Positions 1,536 through 14,644 of a stretch of 64,000 nt of DNA are shown piece after piece; positions within the stretch are counted from its first letter, which is position 1; the number at the start of each line of letters is the position of its first letter. The stretch spans positions 62,001-126,000 of the forward strand of contig VBAK01000105.1 in the NCBI GenBank assembly GCA_005882275.1, read 5' to 3'. The notes beneath the pieces are model-generated. The model saw only the letters and a list, made by a program, of their open reading frames with translations, did no database searches and had not been told where the DNA came from. This DNA comes from Candidatus Segetimicrobium genomatis. Its GTDB lineage: Bacteria > Sysuimicrobiota > Sysuimicrobiia > Sysuimicrobiales > Segetimicrobiaceae. Position numbers and translations under genes: made by a program.

Positions 1536-3623
1536 GTGGTCGTGAAGCGATACGCGGCCGACAAGATCCGGAACATCGCCGTCGCCGGACACGGCGGAAC
1601 GGGGAAGACCTCCCTGGTCGAAGCGATGCTGTTCGCGGCCAAGGCGGTGGACCGGCTCGGCCGGGTGGAGGATGGGACCACCACCACGGATTTCGACCCC
1701 GAGGAGATCCGCCGGAAGATCACCGTCAACGCCGCGCTCGCGCCGCTCGAGTGGAAGGACGCGAAACTGAACCTCATCGACACCCCGGGGTATCCCGACT
1801 TCATCGGCGAAGTCGTCGGCGCGTTTCGGGCCGTGGAGAGCGTCCTCATCACGGTCGACGCGACCGCGGGCGCGGAGGTGCAGACCGACAAGGCCTGGAG
1901 CCTCGCCGCCCGGGAGCGCCTGAGCCGGATCGTGGTGGTCACGAGGATGGACCGGGAGAACGCGGCGTTCGCCAGGGTCGTCGACGGCCTGGCGGAACGC
2001 TTCGGCCGGCAGGTGGTCGCGCTGCAGTGGCCGATCGGCTCGGCGGGATCGTTCAGCGGGACCATCGACCTCGTGACGATGACGGCGCTCGGTCCGTCCG
2101 GCCCGATGGCGCTCGACAGCGTCCCGCGGGACGTCCAAACTGCCGCGGCTGAGGCCCGGGACCGCCTCGTCGAGGCCATCGCCGAGACCGACGATCAGCT
2201 GACCGAGACATATCTGGAAAAGGGCGAGCTCGAACCGGCCGCCCTCGTCGCCGGTCTCCAGCGCGGCGTGCGCGCGGGGACGCTGGCGCCCGTCCTCTGC
2301 ACGGCGGCCCCCCGCGGGATCGGCGTCGCGGCCCTGCTCGATGCGCTGGTTCAACTGCCCCCCTCGCCCGCGGCGCGGGAAGGGGTGGCGGCGCGGAGCG
2401 CCAAGGGCGGGGCGGTGACGCTCACGGCCGCCGACGGGGTGCCGGCCGCGCAGGTGTTCAAGACGATGGCCGACCCGTACGTGGGCAAGCTCTCGTACCT
2501 GCGGGTGTTCAGCGGCACGCTCAAGTCCGACTCGCAGGCCTGGAACGCCGGCAAAGGCAAAGCCGAGCGCCTCGGCCAGCTCTTCTTCCTCCGGGGGAAG
2601 CACCAGGAGCCGGCCCCGGAGATCGGCGCGGGAGACATCGGCGCCGTCGCCAAGCTCGCCGAGACGGGCACCGGAGACACCCTGACCGACAAGGACCGGG
2701 GAGTGATCCTGCCCCCCATCGAGTTCCCCAAGCCGGTGATGTCCATGGCCATCGAGCCGAAGAGCAAGGCCGACGAGGACAAGCTGAGCGCGGCGCTGGC
2801 CCGGCTCATCGAGGAGGACCACACCCTTCAGGTCCGCCGGGCCGGCGAGGTGAAGCAGACGGTGCTCTCGGGCATGGGGGAGTCCCACCTCGAGATTGTC
2901 GCCGACCGCCTGAAGCGGAAGTTCGGGACGGAGGTGACGCTGTCGGTGCCCCGGGTGCCCTACCGCGAGACGGTGCGCGGACACGCCCGCGTACAGGGCA
3001 AGTACAAGCGGCAGACCGGCGGGCGCGGGCAGTACGGCGACTGCTGGATCGAGCTCGACGCGAAGCCGCTCGGCGGGGGCTACGAGTTCGTCGACAAGAT
3101 CTTCGGCGGGGCCATCCCGCGGAACTTCATTCCCTCGGTCGAGAAGGGGATCAAGGACGCGATGGAAGAGGGGATCGTCGCCGGGTATCAGGTCGTCGAT
3201 GTCAAGGTCACCCTCGTGGACGGGTCGTACCACGAGGTCGACTCGTCCGACATGGCCTTCAAGATCGCCGGGTCGATGGCGTTCAAGAAGGCCATGCAGG
3301 AGGCGAAGCCGGCGCTGCTCGAGCCCATCGTGACCGTGGCGGTGCAGGTGCCCGAAGACCAGATGGGCGATATCATCGGCGACCTCAACAGCAAGCGGGC
3401 GCGGATTCAGGGCATGGAGGCGGGCGCGGAGGGGACGTCGATCGTGCGCGCGCAGGTGCCGATGGCGGAGATGCTCAGGTACGCCTCGGACCTGCGATCG
3501 ATCACGGGGGGCCGGGGGACGTTCGAGATGGAGTTCGCCCACTACGACGAGGTGCCCGCGCACATCGCCGAGCGCGTGATCGCCGAAGCGAAGAAGCAGA
3601 AGGAAGCGGTGGAGAGCCGGTGA
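1536..3623 (+). CDS. Elongation factor G-like protein (EF-G paralogue type)
   Basis: P-loop GHGGTGKTS, DTPGYPDF, full-length EF-G domain organisation; GHGGTGKT rather than AHIDAGKT suggests the EF-G-like paralogue. Confidence 0.88.
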   Translation: MVVKRYAADKIRNIAVAGHGGTGKTSLVEAMLFAAKAVDRLGRVEDGTTTTDFDPEEIRRKITVNAALAPLEWKDAKLNLIDTPGYPDFIGEVVGAFRAVESVLITVDATAGAEVQTDKAWSLAARERLSRIVVVTRMDRENAAFARVVDGLAERFGRQVVALQWPIGSAGSFSGTIDLVTMTALGPSGPMALDSVPRDVQTAAAEARDRLVEAIAETDDQLTETYLEKGELEPAALVAGLQRGVRAGTLAPVLCTAAPRGIGVAALLDALVQLPPSPAAREGVAARSAKGGAVTLTAADGVPAAQVFKTMADPYVGKLSYLRVFSGTLKSDSQAWNAGKGKAERLGQLFFLRGKHQEPAPEIGAGDIGAVAKLAETGTGDTLTDKDRGVILPPIEFPKPVMSMAIEPKSKADEDKLSAALARLIEEDHTLQVRRAGEVKQTVLSGMGESHLEIVADRLKRKFGTEVTLSVPRVPYRETVRGHARVQGKYKRQTGGRGQYGDCWIELDAKPLGGGYEFVDKIFGGAIPRNFIPSVEKGIKDAMEEGIVAGYQVVDVKVTLVDGSYHEVDSSDMAFKIAGSMAFKKAMQEAKPALLEPIVTVAVQVPEDQMGDIIGDLNSKRARIQGMEAGAEGTSIVRAQVPMAEMLRYASDLRSITGGRGTFEMEFAHYDEVPAHIAERVIAEAKKQKEAVESR

Positions 3624-3648
3624 TCCGAAGGGGAGCCGTCAGGCCCGC

Positions 3649-4914
3649 CTACTCGTAGAGGAGGTACTTGGCCCGAACGACTTTGAAGCGCTCCAGATCA
3701 AACTGCCAGGTCTTCTCGATCTCCTCAGGCGATTTGCCCGCCATGAGCATCTTGCGCACCTGATCCGTGCCCATGTCCAGGTCGAAGAGATAGTTGCCGA
3801 AGCGCGTCTTGCCCCACCCGAACCGTCCCGGGTAGGTGCGCCGCACGACGTCGATGATCTGGAGGGTGAGATCGACCGGGCGATAGACCGCCCGGTCGGT
3901 CACACGGATCTCCACGCCCCCGTACTCCGGTCCGCCCGAGTCCGTCCAGGGCTCGCCGCGCCAGTAGGTCTCGCGGAACGCCACGCCGCCGATGTTGCGG
4001 GCATCCAGGGCGTCTTTCAAGCGCCACGGCTGGATGTACGTCGCGCCGACGACCTCGAACGGCTTGGTGGTCAGGATGCCCACGGAGAGGCTGGTGTCGC
4101 CGATCGGGCCCATGGCCGGGTAGAGAACGACGGTGTTGAAGTGGGGGATCCCGGGCGATGTCGTCACCCAGGGAAGTCCCGTGTCGTCGAACCAGGTGGA
4201 CCGCTTCCATCCCTGCATCGGCACCACGATCAGATTGGCCCCGAGCCCGTGCTCCTGATTGAACATCCGCGCCAGTTCTCCGATCGTCATCCCGTGGAGG
4301 ATCGGGATCGGGTACATCCCCATGAAGGATTTCCACCGGGGATCGAGCACCGGTCCATCCACCAGCTGTCCGCCGATCGGGTTGGGTCGGTCCAGGACGA
4401 TGAACGGGATCCCCTTTTCCGCCGCCGCCTGCATGGCCAGGGCCAGGGTGGAGATATAGGTGTAGAATCGCGCTCCGACATCCTGGAGGTCCATGACGAT
4501 CGCATCGATCCCTCTGAGCATCCCGGGGGTGGGACTGCGCGTGCTCCCATAGAGGCTGAAGATCGGGAGGTGCGTCTTGGGGTCGATGGCGTCGGCCAGG
4601 GTCCCTCCCCCATCGCCCCGGACGCCGTGCTCGGGACCGAACAGCGCGACCAGGTGCATATCTTTGCGGGCCGCCAGGAGATCGATGGTGCTGTAGAGCG
4701 TGTGGTCGACCCCGGTGGGGTTGGTGAGGAGTCCGACCCGCTTCCCGAGGACCGCGGCGGGAGGGTTGCGGAGGAAGACTTCGAGCCCGGTCCTGACGAA
4801 CCCGTTCGTCGTGGATTCCGTTGGAGCCGGGGGAGTGCCCTGGGAAGACGCGGAGCCGGCAATCAGGAACGCGATCCCCAATGCCGCTGCAATGGCTCGA
4901 AGTGGCTGCCTCAT
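3649..4914 (-). CDS. DUF1343 / NamZ-like exo-beta-N-acetylmuramidase family protein, signal peptide
   Basis: 'KRVGLLTNPTGVD', 'FGPEHGVRGD', 'DLQDVGARFYTYISTL', 'VLDRPNPIGG'; N-terminal hydrophobic signal. Confidence 0.85.
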   Translation of the reverse strand: MRQPLRAIAAALGIAFLIAGSASSQGTPPAPTESTTNGFVRTGLEVFLRNPPAAVLGKRVGLLTNPTGVDHTLYSTIDLLAARKDMHLVALFGPEHGVRGDGGGTLADAIDPKTHLPIFSLYGSTRSPTPGMLRGIDAIVMDLQDVGARFYTYISTLALAMQAAAEKGIPFIVLDRPNPIGGQLVDGPVLDPRWKSFMGMYPIPILHGMTIGELARMFNQEHGLGANLIVVPMQGWKRSTWFDDTGLPWVTTSPGIPHFNTVVLYPAMGPIGDTSLSVGILTTKPFEVVGATYIQPWRLKDALDARNIGGVAFRETYWRGEPWTDSGGPEYGGVEIRVTDRAVYRPVDLTLQIIDVVRRTYPGRFGWGKTRFGNYLFDLDMGTDQVRKMLMAGKSPEEIEKTWQFDLERFKVVRAKYLLYE

Positions 4915-5056
4915 CCTCTCTCCCGGCCGCTGATGGCCTGCGTACGACTACATGCCCAGTTCGACGTCCGAGGCGACATGTCTTGCCGGCGTCCGGGCGA
5001 GGCCGCTCGCGTTCTTGACGGGGTATCCCCCGTACCGTAAAATCGCGTTGCCAGAC

Positions 5057-5131
5057 GGGCGCGTAGCTCAGGGGCAGAGCGCTTCCTTGACACGGAAGAG
5101 GTCCGAGGTTCAAGTCCTCGCGCGCCCACCA
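5057..5131 (+). tRNA. tRNA-Val (anticodon GAC), CCA encoded
   Basis: Cloverleaf by eye: acceptor GGGCGCG/CGCGCCC, D-arm GCTC/GAGC, anticodon stem CTTCC-TTGACAC-GGAAG, T-arm CGAGG-TTCAAGT-CCTCG, 3' ACCA. Confidence 0.95.
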
Positions 5132-5242
5132 TGCCGCCGGCCGCACTGGACTGCACGAGGGTGTTCTCGTCCTTGTTTTCCAAGGGTTCTGCGGCTTCGG
5201 CCGACTGCACCGGACTGCAGCCGCAGACCTTAGGAGATCATA

Positions 5243-5465
5243 ATGAGGGAAATGGACTTGGTTGTACTGACGAGAGATGTGTTGGATCTCGGCTTACGAG
5301 CAGGGGATATCGGGACAGTAGTGTTAGTTCACCGGGGAGGCGCCGGGTACGAGGTCGAGTTCTCTACTCTAGCCCGGCCAGACTCTCGCAGTCGTGACCC
5401 TGTGCGCAGGAGATGTCCGACCGGTAGGCGATCGTGAGATCGCTCATGCACGGCAAGTGGCTTAG
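5243..5465 (+). pseudogene. DUF4926-like small protein, frameshifted near 5373-5375
   Basis: Frame 1 MREMDLVVLTRDVLDLGLRAGDIGTVVLVHRGGAGYEVEFSTLA; after skipping one C in the CCC at 5373-5375 it continues GQTLAVVTLCAGDVRPVGDREIAHARQVA*. Confidence 0.65.
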
Positions 5466-5479
5466 ATCCGCGGCAGGAA

Positions 5480-5791
5480 TCATAGGGTGCGATGCATTCT
5501 GGCTTGCCAGTAGCCGGGTCGGCGCCTGCCATGGGCCACCGCAAGTACCTCGACCTCGCCATCTCGCAACCGGTAGACCAGGCTGAAGGGAAACCGGGGG
5601 AAAAGGTAGCGCCGAGCGCGAGCGCCGTATCGTGGCCATCGGTCCGGGGCTGTGGCTACGGCTTCAACGGCATGCCGCAGTTCTTCGCCAAAACCGCGCG
5701 CTGCAACCAGGCTGTGCTGCGCGTATCACTCGTAGGCTGCTGTTGCTTCCTGGGCGGCCGCCGGGTGGAACTTAACGGTTGTTGGGGGCAC
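5480..5791 (-). pseudogene. RelE/ParE-type toxin interrupted by an in-frame TGA
   Basis: GTG start at 5791 overlapping the antitoxin end; reads MPPTTVKFHPAAAQEATAAYE*YAQHSLVAARGFGEELRHAVEAVATAPDRWPRYGARARRYLFPRFPFSLVYRLRDGEVEVLAVAHGRRRPGYWQARMHRTL*; TGA at 5728-5726. Confidence 0.75.
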
Positions 5792-6017
5792 GCGAGCCGC
5801 GGTGCAGTCGCGTCCTCAGTTCACTCCAAGGGATGGGTTTAACTGCGCCAGAGTCGAGTTCGGCCATGCGATGCTCGATTTCGGCGACCCAGGCTTCTTC
5901 GACACCTTCCTCTGATTTGAGGTCGAGACTCTCGATCAGCAAGCCCGTGAGGGCGACGCGCTCCTTCGGGTCGAGCCTCATTGCCTCTTGAAAGAGGTCT
6001 CGTGCTGATCTCGTCAT
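5772..6017 (-). CDS. Addiction module antitoxin (PF09720-like)
   Basis: MTRSARDLFQEAMRLDPKERVALTGLLIESLD...EEAWVAEIEHRMAELDSGAVKPIPWSELRTRL, typical of this small antitoxin family; overlaps the toxin reading frame. Confidence 0.8.
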   Translation of the reverse strand: MTRSARDLFQEAMRLDPKERVALTGLLIESLDLKSEEGVEEAWVAEIEHRMAELDSGAVKPIPWSELRTRLHRGSRAPNNR

Positions 6018-6220
6018 ATCTCTATGCTCCCACCTCAAAACTTACGGGTCCGACGATGTGCTTGACCCTCCGGACTCTGAGTATATCCTACAGCCGGCGG
6101 CATCGGAAGACAAGGTCTCACTCCGTACGTTTCATCGAGCATCACCTCGAATCCGATGGGGCTAGCAACGTCACTATCTGCGTAGCCATCGCAGGAGCTT
6201 GCATACGCGTGGCAGATTAG

Positions 6221-6239
6221 TGTACACTTGTTGTGTACA
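6221..6239. promoter_or_regulatory. Palindromic operator TGTACAC-TTGTT-GTGTACA upstream of YefM/Phd-PIN pair
   Basis: Perfect 7-bp inverted repeat with 5-nt spacer, each arm carrying TGTACA; immediately upstream of the antitoxin start. Confidence 0.7.
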
Positions 6240-6260
6240 GTTTAACTCTAGGGGGGCGTC

Positions 6261-6497
6261 GTGAAGAAAGTTAATGCGAGAGATGCCCGGGCCGGCCTCC
6301 CGGCCCTCTTGAATAGAGTGGCGATGGGAGAGGAGATCGTGATCCAGCGGCGGGGAAAGGCGGCGGCCCGGCTCGTGCCCCCTATCCGGTCGCGCATGCG
6401 TTTGCCGGATCTCACAGCTTTCAGGGCTTCGATCCGAGTTAAAGGCGAGCCCATGAGCACGACCGTAGTACGGGTAAGACGTGAAGAGCGCTATTGA
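6261..6497 (+). CDS. Phd/YefM family antitoxin
   Basis: MKKVNARDARAGLPALLNRVAMGEEIVIQRRGKAAARLVP motif. Confidence 0.85.
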   Translation: MKKVNARDARAGLPALLNRVAMGEEIVIQRRGKAAARLVPPIRSRMRLPDLTAFRASIRVKGEPMSTTVVRVRREERY

Positions 6498-6952
6498 TCT
6501 ACGTCGACACGAGCGTCCTCGTCCCATACTACTTTCCTGACCCCCTCAGCAGTCGTGTTCAGCGGTTCTTGCGGGAAACACCCGGGATCGCACTAAGTGA
6601 TCTTGGAGAAGTGGAGTTTTTCTCCGCTCTGGCCAGAAAAGTCAGGGAGCGAGAACTCCAGCGTGAAGACGCTCGACGCGTCGCGGCCGTTTTCATGGGG
6701 CATCTCGAAGGTGGAGCGTATACCCGACTTGAACTGGATAGAGCCACCTACCAAACTGCGCGGAGCTGGATCAGCGGTTTTGATGTCCCACTCCGCGCCC
6801 TTGATGCGTTGCACCTTGCCGTTGCAGCTACGGGCGCCCTGCCGATCGCCACAGCCGATGCAGCACAGGCTCGTTCGGCAGCATCGCTGGGCCTGCGGGT
6901 CATGTATTTCGGTCCTGGGCGGCGTGTCCCGACGGTCACGCGTAAGAAGTGA
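6494..6952 (+). CDS. vapC: PIN-domain toxin (VapC-like)
   Basis: MIYVDTSVLVPYYF ... 'LRALDALHLAVAATGALPIATADAAQARSA'; ATG overlaps the antitoxin stop. Confidence 0.88.
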   Translation: MIYVDTSVLVPYYFPDPLSSRVQRFLRETPGIALSDLGEVEFFSALARKVRERELQREDARRVAAVFMGHLEGGAYTRLELDRATYQTARSWISGFDVPLRALDALHLAVAATGALPIATADAAQARSAASLGLRVMYFGPGRRVPTVTRKK

Positions 6953-6963
6953 GGGTACACCCA

Positions 6964-7220
6964 CTACTTGACCCCGTCGCCGTCCCAGTAGGCGGTTGCG
7001 GACGCCACCTGCATCCCCCCAGACCGGCACGTCCCAAAGATGCAGCGGCTGTAAACGCCTTCACCGGTGACGCCGTTGCCGCGCCGGCCGGGCACGACGA
7101 GCGGCTGTGCGTAGATCTGGCCCCGGACCGGTGTGTTCCAGAGCTTGCGGAGCCGGCCCGCCGACGACGGGGTCAGGATTCGCTCGGCGCTGTTCCAGCC
7201 CGTCCGCCCGGCCCCGCCTA
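6964..7220 (-). pseudogene. Possible remnant of a PQQ-repeat/beta-propeller protein
   Basis: Minus-strand RTGWNSAERILTPSSAGRLRKLWNTPVRGQIYAQPLVVPG resembles the N-terminal part of PQQ-like repeat proteins; truncated by the neighbouring gene and followed by unlike sequence. Confidence 0.4.
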
Positions 7221-8120
7221 GCCCATTCGAGTCAGCGCAGAGAGCGACTGCAACTCTTCGACGTAGGGCTTCGCCGGATCCGCCGGGATCAGGTTCAAAA
7301 CGACGTGGTCGGCTCCTGCCGCGAAATGGGCGTCCACTCTTGTCCGGATGGATGCGGCGTCGCCCCACGCGACCACGGCATCGAAGAGCCGATCGGACCC
7401 AGCCGAATCGAGTTCCGGGGCAGGCCAGCCGAGCCTCAGCAGATTGTTTCGGTAGTTCTCCATGCGGAGATAGAGCCGTGTATGGCGATCGCCGATCGCC
7501 CGGGCGGTGGCCCGGTCGCCGGCCAGCACCACGGGGAGGTCTGCCGCGAGGAACGGTTCGGGACCCATCTGCTCGCGGATTGCGCGTACGTGGTCGGTGG
7601 TCGTGAAGTAGGGATAGGCGCCGGCGGTGCGCTCGGCCGCGAGCGCCACCATCCTCGGCCCGAGGGTGGCCAGCACGACCGGCGGGAGCGGAGCCTCGGG
7701 ACCGCGCCAGACCGCCGTGCCCATGACCTCGAGGTAGCGACGCATCGTCGTGAGGGGCCGTACGTAGTCGTGTCCCCGGGCGGTGACCAACGGTGCGTGG
7801 CTGACTCCGATGCCGAGGATGAATCGCCTCGGCCACGCCTCGGCGAGAGCGCGGCCGCCCGCCGCCATCGCCTGCGGGTCGCGCGCGTAAAGGTTCGCGA
7901 TTCCGCTTCCGACGACAAGCCGCGACCCGGCGGAGAGATAGATTGCGCCCTGCGCGAACGCCTCGCGCCCGGTCGATTCTCCGTACCAGAGCGTTCCGTA
8001 GCCGAGCCGTTCCATCTCGGCCACGACCTCGCGCTGGACGGCGGCAGGCAGTCCGGAGAGCGCGCCGGCAAAGACTCCAATCCGGCCCGGATGCACATCG
8101 CCCAGCCGCCGCAGGCCCAT
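7218..8120 (-). CDS. LLM class flavin/F420-dependent oxidoreductase
   Basis: 'GRIGVFAGALSGLPAAVQREVVAEMERLGYGTLWYGES', 'RFILGIGVSHAPLV', 'PLPPVVLATLGPRMVALAAERTAGAYPYFTT'; start taken at MGLRRLG (CAT at 8118-8120). Confidence 0.85.
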   Translation of the reverse strand: MGLRRLGDVHPGRIGVFAGALSGLPAAVQREVVAEMERLGYGTLWYGESTGREAFAQGAIYLSAGSRLVVGSGIANLYARDPQAMAAGGRALAEAWPRRFILGIGVSHAPLVTARGHDYVRPLTTMRRYLEVMGTAVWRGPEAPLPPVVLATLGPRMVALAAERTAGAYPYFTTTDHVRAIREQMGPEPFLAADLPVVLAGDRATARAIGDRHTRLYLRMENYRNNLLRLGWPAPELDSAGSDRLFDAVVAWGDAASIRTRVDAHFAAGADHVVLNLIPADPAKPYVEELQSLSALTRMG

Positions 8121-8342
8121 CACCGACAGTCTAGCACAGTGGTTCAGCGCCAAGCGTCGTCCCATGAGGGGCGTTGACACATCATGAGCGACGAAGCCGG
8201 GCTGGACGAAGCCCAGGAGAGTCACTGGAGGTCTCGTACGTGCGCAAAGTGGGTACATACGCCGATGCTCCTCGCCGAAATGGTTTTGGCCGGGTCTTTC
8301 CAGGGCATAGTATCGGCGGAGTCTTCTCACGGAGGTGTCGGG

Positions 8343-8708
8343 ATGTATCAACAGGGACAGCCCGCAATCAAGAAGGATACGTGGCTCATCCTCGTCACTG
8401 CGGCAAGCCTGATGATCGCCATCGCGTCTCTCGTCCTCGTCACGCGGACCCGGGCGGAGCTGCGGCAGGGTATCACGACCCATGCCCTCGTGCTGGTCAC
8501 GCCGGAAGGCCGGATGCGGCTCGGTATGCTGCCGGGCAATGCCCTAGGACTACGCATCTACAGTCCCGCCGGGCGGGAGCGCCTGGGGTTGGGCGTGACC
8601 CCCAAGAACTCCGCCGGATTCTCCGTGTACGATGCGAACGGCAGGCCGCGGTTCCACCTCATGTTTTCCGATAAGTCCGGCCGTTCAGATTTCAAAATCG
8701 TGAAGTGA
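8343..8708 (+). CDS. Hypothetical membrane-anchored protein with short beta-repeats
   Basis: N-terminal TM helix (WLILVTAASLMIAIASLVLV), then repeats of the form 'LRIYSPAGRERLGLGV..GFSVYDANGRPRFHLMF'. Confidence 0.6.
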   Translation: MYQQGQPAIKKDTWLILVTAASLMIAIASLVLVTRTRAELRQGITTHALVLVTPEGRMRLGMLPGNALGLRIYSPAGRERLGLGVTPKNSAGFSVYDANGRPRFHLMFSDKSGRSDFKIVK

Positions 8709-8989
8709 GGCACCGCCCCGGCCGGCGGCCGGTCGGGGCTCGGACACTGCTCCGCTGACATTTATAGAGGGGGAGTCCCTCCGCCGGGGCCGCGCGCCTC
8801 GGCGGTACATCGATCTGGCGCCGCTGCGATAACATCTCCGCCGCGAATATTTGCCCGCCAACTGGCGGGCGTGCCTGCCGCACGCCCCGTTCTCTGTCCG
8901 ATCCTCCCGCAGTTTGGGCATTGAAACTACTGGAACGGCGGTCCCGGCAGTGCGTCTGGCGACAATTCGGCAGTGTTGAGCGGAGGTTC

Positions 8990-10801
8990 ATGCTTCTTCC
9001 CAGAGGCGACGAATACGTCGCTGCGGTTCAAAACCCGCGCACCGCTTTCGGCGACGTTGAGCTGAGAGACTGCGCTCCTGAGAGCGATCAGTTCGGCATC
9101 CCCAAGCCCTACTCCGGCGGCTTTACGGCGACGTTCCATCTGACGCATCAATCTCAGGAGTGGGCCGTCCGGTGCTTCACGCGGACCATCTCCGATCTCC
9201 AGGAGCGGTACGCGGCCATCGATCACTTCCTGGCGAGGAATACCGAACGATGCTTTGTCGGGACGTTTTACCTCTCGAAAGGGATTCGGATTGCGGCTCA
9301 ATGGTATCCGATCATCAAGATGCAGTGGGTCAAGGGTGAGACCCTGAACGCCTTTATCGGGAAGAACATCGGGGATGCCGGACGCATCAAAAAGCTCGTC
9401 CCGGAATTCCGCGGCCTGGTCCAACGGCTTCAACACCTCAAGATCGCTCACGGTGATCTACAACACGGAAACATCGTGGTCAGCGACGGGAAACTGGTGC
9501 TCATCGACTACGACGGCATGTTTCTCCCGAAACTCGCGCGCCTGAGGACCAATGAAATTGGCCATCCGAATTATCAGCATCCGGGGCGGAACGCGGCCTA
9601 CTATGATGCGTCCGTCGACCATTTTTCGTCGATCGTCATCTACCTGGGGCTGCGGGCGATCTCGGAGGCTCCAAAGCTGTGGGGCAAGTACGATGACAGC
9701 GAGAATATCCTCTTTCGCGCGGAAGATTTCGTCGACCTCGCGCGGTCGGCCGTGCTTCGGGAGCTGTCCGCGCTCCCCGCGCTCTCCTCGGATGTCGAGA
9801 AGTTTCAGGGCGTCTGCAAACTGCCGTTTTCCGAGGTCCCGGACCTTGAAACATTCATCGCGGGGCGTTTTCAGCATCCGGAAGGGGCGGGTTCCCACGC
9901 GGCCGCGGCCTCGGCCGCGCCGAAAGCGGCGCCGCCCCCCGCCGGGCCAAAGACCGTCCCGCCTCCGGCTCCAGCACGAGCGGTGGCGGTCTCGGCCCCG
10001 CCAAAGGGTGTCCCGCCCTCGGCCGGCCCGGGGGGCCAGAACGCTCTCCTCGACGGGTCGGACGTCGAGCTGCTCAGGAGGCACGTTGGTCAGCGTGTCG
10101 ACGTCGTGGGGTCCGTGGCGTACTATCACGTGTCTGGGAAAGGATTCAGCCGTCCCCTCGTTCTGCTCAACTTCGGCGCCTATCCCGATCATACGTTCAC
10201 GCTTGTGCTCAGGGATCGCGCGCTGAAAGCATTCCGGAGCAGCGGGGTGGACCCCCAAGTCCTCGTCGGCAAGCGGATCAAGGTGTCGGGCGTCATGGCA
10301 AGTTACAAAGGCAAACCGCAGATGGAGGTCGAGGGGCCCGCGCAGATTCAGGTGCTCGGGGGAGGGATGGCGGCGCAGACGTTGGTGAGCCGTCCGGCTG
10401 CCGCGCCCGTCTCGGGTTCCCATCAGCAGGCGGGCTCCGGCTCGCCCGAATCGGTGTTCGACAGGCTGTACGGGGGGCGAGCGGTCTCACCGGATGCTGC
10501 GAAAGCGGCGCCCACGCACACTCTACCGCCGAGGCCGGCGAAGGCCCCGCCCGTCCACACTCCCACGCCGAGGCCGGCGAAGGCCCCACCGGCCCGCGCT
10601 CCCGCCCCGAGGCCGGCGAAGGCCCCACCGGCCCGCGCGTCCGCCCCGAGGCCGGCGAAGACGGCCGCCCGTCAGGCGCCTCGCGCGGACCGGACCCGCA
10701 AGAAGATCCCGGGCGTTCTGGTGGGCATCTTCGTGGTGGTGGTGCTGGGCGTGATCGGGTGGGCCATTTGGGCATTGGTGAGCGTTACCGGGGGGTTTTG
10801 A
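8990..10801 (+). CDS. Ser/Thr protein kinase-like protein with OB-fold-like domain and C-terminal TM helix
   Basis: HGDLQHGNI catalytic loop and LIDYDGMF (DFG-equivalent); central 'VDVVGSVAYYHVSGKGFSRPLVLLNFG...VGKRIKVSGVMASYKGKPQMEVEGPAQIQVL' OB-like; C-terminal 'VLVGIFVVVVLGVIGWAIWALV'; ATG at 8990 preceded by CGGAGG. Confidence 0.85.
   Translation: MLLPRGDEYVAAVQNPRTAFGDVELRDCAPESDQFGIPKPYSGGFTATFHLTHQSQEWAVRCFTRTISDLQERYAAIDHFLARNTERCFVGTFYLSKGIRIAAQWYPIIKMQWVKGETLNAFIGKNIGDAGRIKKLVPEFRGLVQRLQHLKIAHGDLQHGNIVVSDGKLVLIDYDGMFLPKLARLRTNEIGHPNYQHPGRNAAYYDASVDHFSSIVIYLGLRAISEAPKLWGKYDDSENILFRAEDFVDLARSAVLRELSALPALSSDVEKFQGVCKLPFSEVPDLETFIAGRFQHPEGAGSHAAAASAAPKAAPPPAGPKTVPPPAPARAVAVSAPPKGVPPSAGPGGQNALLDGSDVELLRRHVGQRVDVVGSVAYYHVSGKGFSRPLVLLNFGAYPDHTFTLVLRDRALKAFRSSGVDPQVLVGKRIKVSGVMASYKGKPQMEVEGPAQIQVLGGGMAAQTLVSRPAAAPVSGSHQQAGSGSPESVFDRLYGGRAVSPDAAKAAPTHTLPPRPAKAPPVHTPTPRPAKAPPARAPAPRPAKAPPARASAPRPAKTAARQAPRADRTRKKIPGVLVGIFVVVVLGVIGWAIWALVSVTGGF
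10529..10664 (+). repeat. 39-bp tandem repeat encoding PRPAKAPP-type linker (3 full units plus partial)
   Basis: CCGAGGCCGGCGAAG recurs at 10529, 10568, 10607 and 10646. Confidence 0.85.
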
Positions 10802-10944
10802 GCCGGTGCAGACCGTCCACCGGGGACCCACGAAGGCGGCTCAGCAGAGCCGCCGCGGGGCATGACTGAATGTGCGGTCGGACACTGGGAGGCCGGCGCC
10901 TCTCATGAGCAACAGGGGTGCGCCACACAAAGGAGGCGGTGAGG

Positions 10945-11781
10945 ATGTCGTACACAGCCGAAATCAGCCGCAAGAACCCGTCATGCTTTCTGTTCCTGAT
11001 CGACCGATCCGGTTCCATGGCCGATCCCTTCGGGGAAGACTCGAAGAAACGGAAAGCCGATCAAGTCTCGGACGTGATCAATCGACTCCTGCAGAACCTC
11101 ATCATCAAGTGCGCGAAGCAGGAAGGCGTGCGTGACTACTACCACATCGGCGTGATCGGGTACGGAATGCAGGTGGGCCCCGCCTTCGCCGGCGCGCTCG
11201 CCGGGAAGGACTTGGTGCCCATCAGCGAAGTCGCGAACACCCCCGCCCGAATCGAGACGCGCAGCAAGAAAGGCGACGATGGGGCGGGCGGCGTCACGGA
11301 TCAAACCGTGAAGTTCCCCATTTGGTTTGATCCCGTGGCTCACGGCGGGACGCCGATGTGTAAGGCACTGACGCAGGCGCAGTCGATGATGCAGGGGTGG
11401 ACGAGCGAGCATCCGCACGGGTTTCCCCCGGTGGTCATCAACATCAGCGACGGAGAACCGACCGACGGCGACCCCAGCGCCCCGGCCGAATCCTTGACGC
11501 AGATATCCTCAAGCGACGGAAACCTCCTCTTCTTCAACGTGCACATCTCCTCCCACGCGGCGTCGTCCGTCCTGTTTCCCGACAACGACGAGACGCTGCC
11601 GGACGATCACGCGCGCCTGCTGTTCAACATGTCCAGCCGCCTGCCCGAATTCCTGCGAACGTTCGTGCAGCAGGAAGGCATTGCCGTGTCCGAGAACACG
11701 CGCGGGTTTGCCTTTCAGGCGGATCTGGTGACCCTGATCAAGTTCCTGGATATCGGCACGCGACCGAGCAATATGCGGTAG
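10945..11781 (+). CDS. TerY-like von Willebrand factor A (vWA) domain protein
   Basis: MIDAS: DRSGSM, HGGTPM, ISDGEPTDG; AGGAGG Shine-Dalgarno at 10931-10936. Confidence 0.88.
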   Translation: MSYTAEISRKNPSCFLFLIDRSGSMADPFGEDSKKRKADQVSDVINRLLQNLIIKCAKQEGVRDYYHIGVIGYGMQVGPAFAGALAGKDLVPISEVANTPARIETRSKKGDDGAGGVTDQTVKFPIWFDPVAHGGTPMCKALTQAQSMMQGWTSEHPHGFPPVVINISDGEPTDGDPSAPAESLTQISSSDGNLLFFNVHISSHAASSVLFPDNDETLPDDHARLLFNMSSRLPEFLRTFVQQEGIAVSENTRGFAFQADLVTLIKFLDIGTRPSNMR

Positions 11782-11801
11782 GGGATGGCGTCCACAGGGA
11801 C

Positions 11802-12611
11802 ATGGAGGCGCTGCTGACCCTTCTGCGGCTGCAGAAGGCGGGGAATGCGGAAGCGGAGTATGAAGACGCCTCGTGTCCGGACGAGAATGGGAGACGAGAG
11901 GGCGCCGAGCTGCGCTTTGCCATTGCGGACGGCGCCAGCGAGGGCATGTTGAGCGGCGCATGGGCGAGAGTCCTGGTGGAGCTGCACTGCCGGTTTGACT
12001 GGATGGGTGGCTCAGTTGAGCAGTTTCTCGAGAGCGCGTATGGAGACTGGCAATCGTTTACGTCGGAGTACCTCCGCGGCCGGGAAACGCGGAACTCTCC
12101 GGTGCAGTGGTACGAGGAGCCCGGATTCGAGGTAGGAGCGTTTTCCACCCTCCTCGGATTGACCCTCACCGGCCGCTCCCAGGACCGGTCCGGCGCATGG
12201 ACGGCCGTCGCCGTGGGCGACAGCTGCCTCTTCCAGGTCAGGGGCGGCGCCCTGCTGAGGAAATTCCCCCTCGAGCAGTCCGCCGATTTCAATAATCGTC
12301 CGGTGCTCCTTGCCAGCAAGCCGGCGCACAACGGACAGGCCATCGGCGCCGTGAGACGGATGTCCGGGACGTTCGAGCCCGGGGATGTCTTTTACCTCAT
12401 GACCGACGCGCTGGCGCGGTGGGCGTTGGGGGAAGACGAAGAGGGCAGGAATCCATGGACGGTCCTCCGGGACCACGCCACACGCGATGGTCCGGCGTTC
12501 GGCGCGTGGATCGCGGCGTTGCGAAACGACCGGGAATTGCGCAATGACGACGTGACGGTCCTCCGGATCGACCTGCCCGGACGCGAGCCGGACCGGTCCC
12601 CGTCGGCCTAG
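11802..12611 (+). CDS. PP2C-family protein phosphatase
   Basis: FAIADGASEG, AVAVGDSCLFQVRGG, FYLMTDALARW, NDDVTVLRI motifs in order. Confidence 0.85.
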   Translation: MEALLTLLRLQKAGNAEAEYEDASCPDENGRREGAELRFAIADGASEGMLSGAWARVLVELHCRFDWMGGSVEQFLESAYGDWQSFTSEYLRGRETRNSPVQWYEEPGFEVGAFSTLLGLTLTGRSQDRSGAWTAVAVGDSCLFQVRGGALLRKFPLEQSADFNNRPVLLASKPAHNGQAIGAVRRMSGTFEPGDVFYLMTDALARWALGEDEEGRNPWTVLRDHATRDGPAFGAWIAALRNDRELRNDDVTVLRIDLPGREPDRSPSA

Positions 12612-14644
12612 CCGCGCTCCACCTCCACCATCGCATCGAAGGCGGCCTGGCCGGCGGAGAAGTCGAAGGTGTCCACCGCCTCGTCGGGAATCGCAGGGCG
12701 CCCCGAGGTGAGGCGGTTCAGCCCTGTCCAGCCGTCGCGCATCCACACGGTCCCGGGCGGGATGCGGCCGGTGACGTGCGCGCGCGCCCGGAACTCACCC
12801 CGGTCGTTGAAGATGCGGATCGGCGCGCCATCCTCCAGGCCCCGCGCCGCGGCATCCGCCGGCGAGATCCACAGCCTCGGCTCCGGGTCGAGCCGCGCGA
12901 GCGTGGGGAGCGCCCGACCGTGGTCGTAGAACCCATGAAACTGGGTCAGCGTCCTGCCCTGGCGGAAGCTCAACGGGTAACGGTCGGATCCGGGCAGCGG
13001 CACGTACACCGGGAGGGCCGGAAGCCCGAGAGACTTCGCGCGCTCAGAGTAGAACTCGACCTTGCCCGAGGGCGTGGGGAAGACGCGGTCCGGGTGGGCG
13101 ACGTGGGAAACGCGCAGCGCGCGCATCCCGCCCTCGGCGCGCAGCGCGGCGACGGTCGCGCGGCCGGTGGCCGGATGATCGAGGATCGCGTCGATCGGCC
13201 CCTCGTCGGTCTCCCACGGGAAGAAGTCGACGAGGCCCAGACGGCGTCCCAACTCCTGGAGCATCCACGAGAGCGACCTCGCTTCGCCGGGCGCGTCGAG
13301 GATCTTCGGCATCAGGTAGAGGTGGGTGTTGGTGCTTTTGCAGCCCAGCTCTTCGAGCCACGCGGTCGCGGGGAGGACCACGTCGGCACAGCGGCGGGCG
13401 GTGTCGTTCATGAAGAGGTCGTGCGTGACGACGAGGTCGGTCCGGGCCAGCCCCGCGGCCACATGCTCGGCGTCGGCGAAGGACGAGAGCATGTCGGTGC
13501 CGAGGAGGAAGAGGACGCGGACGCTGCCGTCCCGCAGGGCCTCGGTGATCCGGGGCATCTGGTTTGGGAGGTAGCGGCCCGGCGGCCGGCGCGCCGCGGC
13601 GGCGATGTTCCCCAGCGCCTGGCCGTGACTCGCGCCCCCGTGGCGCGGGCCGAGGCCCCCGCCGGGAACGCCGAGATTCCCCGTGAGCGCGGGCAGGCAC
13701 GCGACGGCCCGGGCGCCCTGCCAGCCGTTGGCGCCTTTGTGCATCGAGCTGCCCCCGAGCAGGATCATCGCGGGCCGCGTCGTGGCGTAGCGGCGGGCGA
13801 GCGCCGCGATCCGATCGGCCGCGAGCCCGGTCTCTCGCGCCGCCTGCTCGATGGGATACGCCCGCACGTGCTCGGCCAGCCGATCGAAGCCGACCGTGTG
13901 CGCGTCAACGAACCCGCGGTCATACAGCCCCTCGCCGACGATCACGTGCATGAGCGCGAGGGCGAGCGCGGCGTCCGTCCCGGGCCGGATCACCAGCACC
14001 TCGTCCGACTGCGCCGCCGCCTCGGTGCGGCGTACGTCGATCGTGACGACCCAGGCGCCGCGCCGCTTCGCCGCGGAGAGATGGCGGCCGGTGTTTGGCT
14101 GGCTGGCCAGGTTTGCCCCCCAGAGCAGGATCAGGTTGGCATGCGCGCCCATGTCCTCTTTGGTGTTCGTCTCGAGGGGACCCGTCAGCCCGATCCCGAA
14201 GCCCCCGAGGCCCCAGCAGATCATCGCCGGGTGCCACCACTGGCAGCCGTAGAGATTGGCAAAGCGACGCAGGAGCTGAGAGGCGATGCGCGTCCCGTAG
14301 TTGTTGGCGAAATGACCGTGGCCCTGCCAGACGCCCACCGCTTCCCGTCCGGCCGTCCGCATCCGCGCCACGACGAGGTCGAGCGCCTCCCCCCAGCTCG
14401 CCCGACGCCAGGCGTCGTCCGTTCTCCGGTCACGGACCAGCGGGAAGAGCAGCCGCTTCGGATTTCCGATGATCTCCCGCGAGGCCTGCCCGCGGAGGCA
14501 GAGGAAGCCTTGGCTGTCCGGGTTGTCGGGATCGCCCTTCACGCCGACGAGCCGCCCGTCCTCCACGTCCACCAGCATCCCGCAGAGCGTCGGGTGGCAG
14601 TTCATGGGGCACATCGTCCGGATCGTGCGGCGCGCGGAGCTCAT
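12608..14644 (-). CDS. Molybdopterin-dependent oxidoreductase (formate dehydrogenase/DMSO-reductase-like)
   Basis: N-terminal CPMNCHPTLCG...GFLCLRG cluster-binding region, 'GDPDNPDSQGFLCLRG', 'ALTGNLGVPGGG', 'FLLGTDMLSSFADAEHV', C-terminal 'ARAHVTGRIPPGTVWM'. Confidence 0.88.
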   Translation of the reverse strand: MSSARRTIRTMCPMNCHPTLCGMLVDVEDGRLVGVKGDPDNPDSQGFLCLRGQASREIIGNPKRLLFPLVRDRRTDDAWRRASWGEALDLVVARMRTAGREAVGVWQGHGHFANNYGTRIASQLLRRFANLYGCQWWHPAMICWGLGGFGIGLTGPLETNTKEDMGAHANLILLWGANLASQPNTGRHLSAAKRRGAWVVTIDVRRTEAAAQSDEVLVIRPGTDAALALALMHVIVGEGLYDRGFVDAHTVGFDRLAEHVRAYPIEQAARETGLAADRIAALARRYATTRPAMILLGGSSMHKGANGWQGARAVACLPALTGNLGVPGGGLGPRHGGASHGQALGNIAAAARRPPGRYLPNQMPRITEALRDGSVRVLFLLGTDMLSSFADAEHVAAGLARTDLVVTHDLFMNDTARRCADVVLPATAWLEELGCKSTNTHLYLMPKILDAPGEARSLSWMLQELGRRLGLVDFFPWETDEGPIDAILDHPATGRATVAALRAEGGMRALRVSHVAHPDRVFPTPSGKVEFYSERAKSLGLPALPVYVPLPGSDRYPLSFRQGRTLTQFHGFYDHGRALPTLARLDPEPRLWISPADAAARGLEDGAPIRIFNDRGEFRARAHVTGRIPPGTVWMRDGWTGLNRLTSGRPAIPDEAVDTFDFSAGQAAFDAMVEVERG

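Follow-up and report, generated by a model that had tools for sequence, protein, structure and literature searches.

What role do three adjacent genes for a Ser/Thr kinase-like protein, a von Willebrand factor A (vWA) protein and a PP2C-type phosphatase play in a bacterium from an uncultured candidate phylum? We addressed this question for the triad at positions 8990-12611 (forward strand) of the window, the 64,000-nucleotide (nt) stretch of contig VBAK01000105.1 of 'Candidatus Segetimicrobium genomatis' analysed here. The triad probably represents a chromosomal anti-phage system, namely TerY-P of the stand-alone STK-OB subtype, with a permuted gene order and a mosaic origin, and we propose that it acts as a phosphorylation switch after phage entry. 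The permuted order, the mosaic build, the variable interval beside a tRNA-Val gene and the family-wide alternation of Arg and Lys at the kinase beta-3 position are new here.

Identity and conservation of the three genes

The kinase, vWA and PP2C genes lie in series on one strand and all three are intact, with gaps of 143 nt (kinase/vWA) and 20 nt (vWA/PP2C); AAAGGAGG stands immediately 5' of the vWA ATG. A preliminary description of this DNA had reported three consecutive same-strand genes and had named TerY-P as a lead. Its coordinates and quoted motifs are correct, the motifs are conserved in homologues, and the lead is borne out by matches to the PADLOC models TerY, STK_OB and PP2C (Table 1). 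These models together are what we take to be the TerY-P set of PADLOC, whose output gives names only. The TerY match spans the whole model (1-277 of 277). In a Pfam scan of the triad, VWA was the sole family above its cut-off; PP2C_2 fell just under it on the phosphatase (19.4 bits versus a cut-off of 24) and no kinase family exceeded it. A search by sequence for solved relatives returned nothing meaningful for the vWA or PP2C protein and, for the kinase, nothing beyond generic protein kinases. Structure prediction agrees with the folds proposed earlier: the AlphaFold2 model of the phosphatase (predicted local distance difference test score, 91.5) retrieved PP2C structures with Foldseek, including PstP and tPphA, and the confidently modelled kinase domain retrieved Ser/Thr kinases (probability 1.00).

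The MIDAS residues of the vWA protein (D20xS22xS24/T136/D169) are invariant in 18 homologues, and the PP2C metal residues D43 (ADG), D140 (GDS), D202 and D249/D250 (NDD) are invariant in 22. By far the most conserved component is the vWA protein, with a mean column identity of 71% versus 44% for PP2C over similar, not identical, sets of loci. Such conservation would be expected of a shared hub, which is suggestive only.

We surveyed TerY-family vWA genes at 67 distinct loci, from many phyla, and scored the genes as linked when all three lay within about 5 kb. Kinase, vWA and PP2C are linked in 59 of them. With this count across many phyla, chance does not account for the grouping, and the co-occurrence expected in the preliminary description withstood this preset test. 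Four of the eight unlinked loci are cut by a contig end and in L115 the kinase lies slightly farther off, leaving three (L028, L116 and L122) that are truly without partners. In 48 loci the genes follow the usual order, vWA-PP2C-kinase on one strand; the kinase is divergent in five, and in L141 PP2C comes first and the kinase match is only weak. The order kinase-vWA-PP2C is confined, among the surveyed loci, to the lineage of the window (the window and L004-L007; candidate group ANGP1). All three genes are under purifying selection, with ratios of non-synonymous to synonymous substitution rates of 0.08-0.21 against close relatives or orthologues.

The window vWA is 97% identical to that of L004 ('Terrabacteria group bacterium ANGP1'). 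A vWA 96% identical to the ANGP1 copies occurs at L005, on a contig filed as an Acidobacteria metagenome-assembled genome, reflecting misbinning or very recent transfer. The genome of the window encodes a second PP2C_2 domain (G000:C114:26387-26956, L002) within a 906-amino-acid (aa) open frame, perhaps as part of a fusion with a different domain. At L063 (G001), a 1840-aa open frame (2740-8259) that holds the C-terminal part of a TerY-family vWA adjoins PP2C and kinase genes; it is possibly a giant fusion or a frameshifted gene.

Domain structure and catalytic residues of the kinase

The kinase comprises a kinase domain (aa 1-295), an OB-like domain (aa about 350-457) and a C-terminal transmembrane helix (aa about 575-602), with two Ala/Pro-rich linkers flanking the OB-like domain, the second of which carries 39-nt repeats. 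AlphaFold2 modelled both linkers as disordered and aa about 350-457 as a barrel with the order strand-strand-strand-helix-strand-strand, which is that of an OB fold; its terminal helix (575-602) overlaps the predicted transmembrane segment. Because OB-less kinases also match STK_OB through the kinase domain, we tested the OB domain with a separate profile, built solely from the OB domains of Bacteroidota and Pseudomonadota, thus without the lineage of the window. This profile detected the domain in the window kinase (E 1.2e-17). No CxxC motif occurs in the window kinase sequence, and it therefore has no zinc ribbon. The OB domain, the C-terminal helix, the beta-3 Arg and the tRNA-Val context were absent from the preliminary description.

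In protein kinases the beta-3 position holds the ATP-anchoring lysine. The window kinase has Arg61 there, in a predicted strand (E56-63). We place this residue at the beta-3 position because Arg and Lys alternate there across the family (Arg in 51 of 57 kinases, Lys in the other six, no other residue). The Glu at alpha-C position 72 is not conserved among the 57 kinases, and a nearly invariant Arg73-Tyr74 follows it. The window kinase thus has neither feature of a canonical Hanks-type kinase, the beta-3 VAIK lysine or the alpha-C glutamate. The catalytic-loop residues H154, D156 and N161 are present in 56 of the 57 (the remaining one has a gap or an unread X), as are D173, Y174 and D175 in all 57 and G176 in 42.

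Two further members of the kinase family have unusual architectures. A Parabeggiatoa kinase (L018, 1606-3303) is fused to an FGE-sulfatase domain (2.6e-28). Candidatus Obscuribacter (G047, the genome of L012) has about 16 matches to the family, some in proteins with two kinase domains, which represent a lineage-specific expansion.

Relationship to known TerY-P systems

TerY-P triads first came to notice in Ter systems, where a role as metal-sensing switches was hypothesised (Anantharaman 2012, as cited in PMC11090510). PMC11090510 also ties TerY-P with a zinc-ribbon kinase to Ter and CoCoNuT systems, and, with reference to Gao et al. 2020, treats OB-fold modules as stand-alone anti-phage systems. 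T7-like phages are named as targets in a commentary on the latter study (PMC7699616). In P. aeruginosa PAO1, a TerY-P variant gives protection from Autographiviridae whether the multiplicity of infection is low or high, and most cells survive (PMC10889362). The earlier view of the triad as part of a Ter-related stress system of largely unproven function is therefore dated (PMC11090510, PMC7699616, PMC10889362).

We assign the 8990-12611 triad, on its predicted domains, to the stand-alone, anti-phage STK-OB subtype of TerY-P, because its kinase has an OB domain and no CxxC and its genome has no TerD. A search of the complete assembly, which did not extend to TerC and TerB, gave no TerD (PF02342). 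To that extent the claim that no ter genes lie nearby holds, and the triad also stands alone in that no defence partner was found among the neighbours scanned. Like the STK-OB subtype (Gao et al. 2020; PMC10889362), the window triad has all three components, a kinase OB domain, a MIDAS and linkage, with no other genes needed. PMC10889362 allows fewer than three genes between the components and sets no gene order; in the window the three are consecutive. The window triad differs from this subtype in its order, kinase-vWA-PP2C instead of vWA-PP2C-kinase, and in having vWA and PP2C genes from another lineage than the kinase gene. The long Ala/Pro linkers and transmembrane helix of its kinase also occur in relatives from Bacteroidota and some Pseudomonadota, unlike the Pseudomonas kinases L024 and L127, which lack them.

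The TerY-P of Ter operons and of type II and III-A CoCoNuT (PMC11090510) likewise combines a TerY-like vWA, a PP2C and a Ser/Thr kinase in one operon, but its kinases end in a zinc ribbon. We rejected membership of either system, there being no TerD in the genome and no zinc ribbon on the kinase. OB-less vWA-PP2C-kinase operons of Bacillota, Acidobacteriota, Chloroflexota and others hold the closest vWA (66-68% identity) and PP2C (up to 48%) outside the lineage of the window. Their kinases end differently, with a membrane helix and coiled coil, TPR or an FGE-sulfatase domain; their gene order also differs, and the kinase tree rejects the grouping.

The YegI-YegK-YegL set of E. coli is another kinase, PP2C and vWA gene set. 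The TerY model found no match at E<=0.001 in 14 control genomes, E. coli included, so YegL falls outside the vWA family of the window at this threshold.

Mosaic ancestry of the operon

The three genes have conflicting histories. In the kinase tree, the lineage of the window joins the Bacteroidota OB kinases (support 100/99), and in the PP2C tree it falls with sequences from Fermentithermobacillaceae and Chloroflexota (support 74/99). Tree tests, in which the groups were picked after a quick tree and the p-values therefore lean low, rejected a grouping with Fermentithermobacillaceae for the kinase (approximately unbiased test, p = 2e-6) and a grouping with Bacteroidota OB triads for the vWA (p = 7e-6) and the PP2C (p = 0.003); a vWA clade with Fermentithermobacillaceae was not rejected (p = 0.17). 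Because the conflict between the kinase tree and the vWA and PP2C trees is reciprocal and agrees with the altered gene order, we conclude that the operon is a mosaic, in which an OB kinase was combined with a vWA-PP2C pair that stems from a lineage with OB-less kinases.

Proposed function and alternatives

We propose that the C-terminal helix anchors the kinase in the membrane and that the OB domain of the kinase senses nucleic acid that is phage-derived or induced by infection, which would turn the kinase on. The active kinase may then phosphorylate TerY, the vWA protein, or else a protein of host or phage origin displayed by TerY at the MIDAS metal site. The PP2C would strip the phosphate and so keep the system quiet in uninfected cells. 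The kinase and phosphatase may thus act reversibly on the vWA protein, as the preliminary description had supposed. Because the cassette has no nuclease or killer gene, we read the outcome as a phosphorylation-dependent block of phage development. In relatives studied by others, anti-phage protection left most cells alive.

The matches to all three PADLOC models, the OB domain, the lack of a CxxC, the patchy distribution, plasmid-borne copies, variable interval by tRNA-Val, linkage, purifying selection and anti-phage relatives all count for defence. Several observations weigh against it. The anti-phage activity of the window copy is read from its relatives. The flanking genes encode Mo-enzymes, a luciferase-like monooxygenase and housekeeping functions, and form no defence island. 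A match to STK_OB does not by itself establish the OB subtype, as OB-less kinases score about 1e-79 via the kinase domain. A close relative (G020, L006) has the same triad minus the OB: its orthologous kinase (2259-3521) has lost this domain through an in-frame deletion and kept the kinase domain, linker and transmembrane helix, so OB sensing is not essential and the sensor may sit elsewhere. In the literature searched, which left most subscription journals out of reach, we found no report of a TerY-P mechanism and none of vWA phosphorylation in any member.

Alternatively, the triad may be a stress- or metal-responsive switch in which the MIDAS senses or needs metal and the kinase and PP2C control how the cell responds to stress, with no more than an incidental part in phage defence. 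The first description of TerY-P in Ter systems and the metal-sensing hypothesis (PMC11090510) are in line with this, as are the invariant MIDAS and the metabolic neighbourhood with no defence island. We consider it unlikely, given a genome without TerD, a kinase with an OB domain and not a zinc ribbon, OB-type relatives that proved anti-phage when tested, and a patchy, mobile distribution. The catalytic residues raise a different doubt, namely that the protein is a pseudokinase or weak kinase that binds nucleotide as a scaffold or allosteric switch, with the PP2C acting on phosphates placed by other kinases. The prevalent beta-3 Arg and the Arg73-Tyr74 beside a non-conserved position 72 would fit such a role, but H154, D156, N161 and D173 are conserved throughout, six members have Lys at beta-3, and the conservation and linkage of the phosphatase are best explained by a phosphorylating partner; we therefore think this improbable as well. 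Least plausible, in our judgement very much so, is a recently captured cassette that is silent or decaying and has no current function. Decayed relatives do exist, as the L004 kinase is frameshifted, the L028 vWA is broken and alone, and L116 and L122 carry orphan vWA genes, but the three frames of the window are intact and evolve under constraint relative to their orthologues.

Beyond the anti-phage role that we favour for this triad, we tentatively suggest that the TerY-P family serves as a plug-in platform for defence. Its vWA-PP2C core would be conserved, and lineages would trade the membrane-anchored sensor kinases, which have OB, coiled-coil, TPR or FGE C-termini and work with Arg in place of the beta-3 Lys; the window operon would be a natural swap of an OB kinase onto a core from a lineage with OB-less kinases. 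TerY-P is among the few validated anti-phage systems built of signalling enzymes only, and the range of its OB type now reaches an uncultured candidate phylum. The kinase swap, the OB-less L006 and the Arg/Lys alternation offer ready comparisons for finding the part that senses phage, the need for kinase activity and the substrate.

Genomic context

The triad lies in a variable interval (5132-12607) between the tRNA-Val and a molybdopterin oxidoreductase gene. In the same genus, G032 keeps both flanks, including the same tRNA, and carries an FAD amine-oxidase-like gene as cargo; in G031 the oxidoreductase and part of the tRNA region persist, the cargo is MFS/SDR/TetR-like (both cargoes identified by eye from translations), and the triad is on another contig. 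The tRNA-Val 3' end is not repeated in the window, and its two one-mismatch matches in the assembly are on other contigs. For this reason we claim a variable interval only and not a mobile element; an integrative island with att sites was rejected, as the search gave no att-like repeat. Of 43 genomes of the phylum, 6 carry TerY, as do 3 of the 5 genomes of the genus; relatives are plasmid-borne in the cyanobacteria Calothrix and Acaryochloris. Viral carriage was rejected, as phage records and one IMG/VR scan yielded no relatives. So was a defence island, as ten neighbouring genes scanned gave no other PADLOC match.

Table 1. Features of the triad and its surroundings (window coordinates; aa, amino acids)
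Feature	Position	Strand	Evidence or remark
tRNA-Val (GAC)	5057..5131	+	edge of variable interval holding triad
Small gene, one transmembrane segment, unknown family	8184..8708	+	possible accessory
STK-OB kinase gene	8990..10801	+	ATG start, 603 aa; PADLOC STK_OB 5e-91
Arg61 codon, in AVRCF, beta-3 (VAIK lysine) position	9170..9172	+	family alignment, AlphaFold2 strand
Catalytic loop HGDLQHGN (H154, D156, N161) to metal-binding DYDG (D173-G176)	9449..9517	+	family alignment
TerY-type vWA gene	10945..11781	+	ATG start, 278 aa; PADLOC TerY 1.6e-106, Pfam VWA 1.1e-06
PP2C-type phosphatase gene	11802..12611	+	ATG start, 269 aa; PADLOC PP2C 6.6e-28
Molybdopterin oxidoreductase gene	12608-14644		other flank of variable interval

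The small one-transmembrane gene upstream of the kinase gene has a 62% identical counterpart in G020 (L006, 5353-5700), immediately 3' of the PP2C gene; the two lineages thus have it at opposite ends of the triad. Its link to the triad is weak because G022 carries the small gene without any TerY, and we rejected it as an obligate fourth component. A sigma-70-type promoter was sought and none was found, and terminator-like sequences were fewer than expected by chance. The variable interval also holds a putative addiction-module antitoxin gene (5772-6038, minus strand; Unstab_antitox, 4.9e-13) and a PIN-domain gene (6494-6952, plus strand; 3.2e-12).

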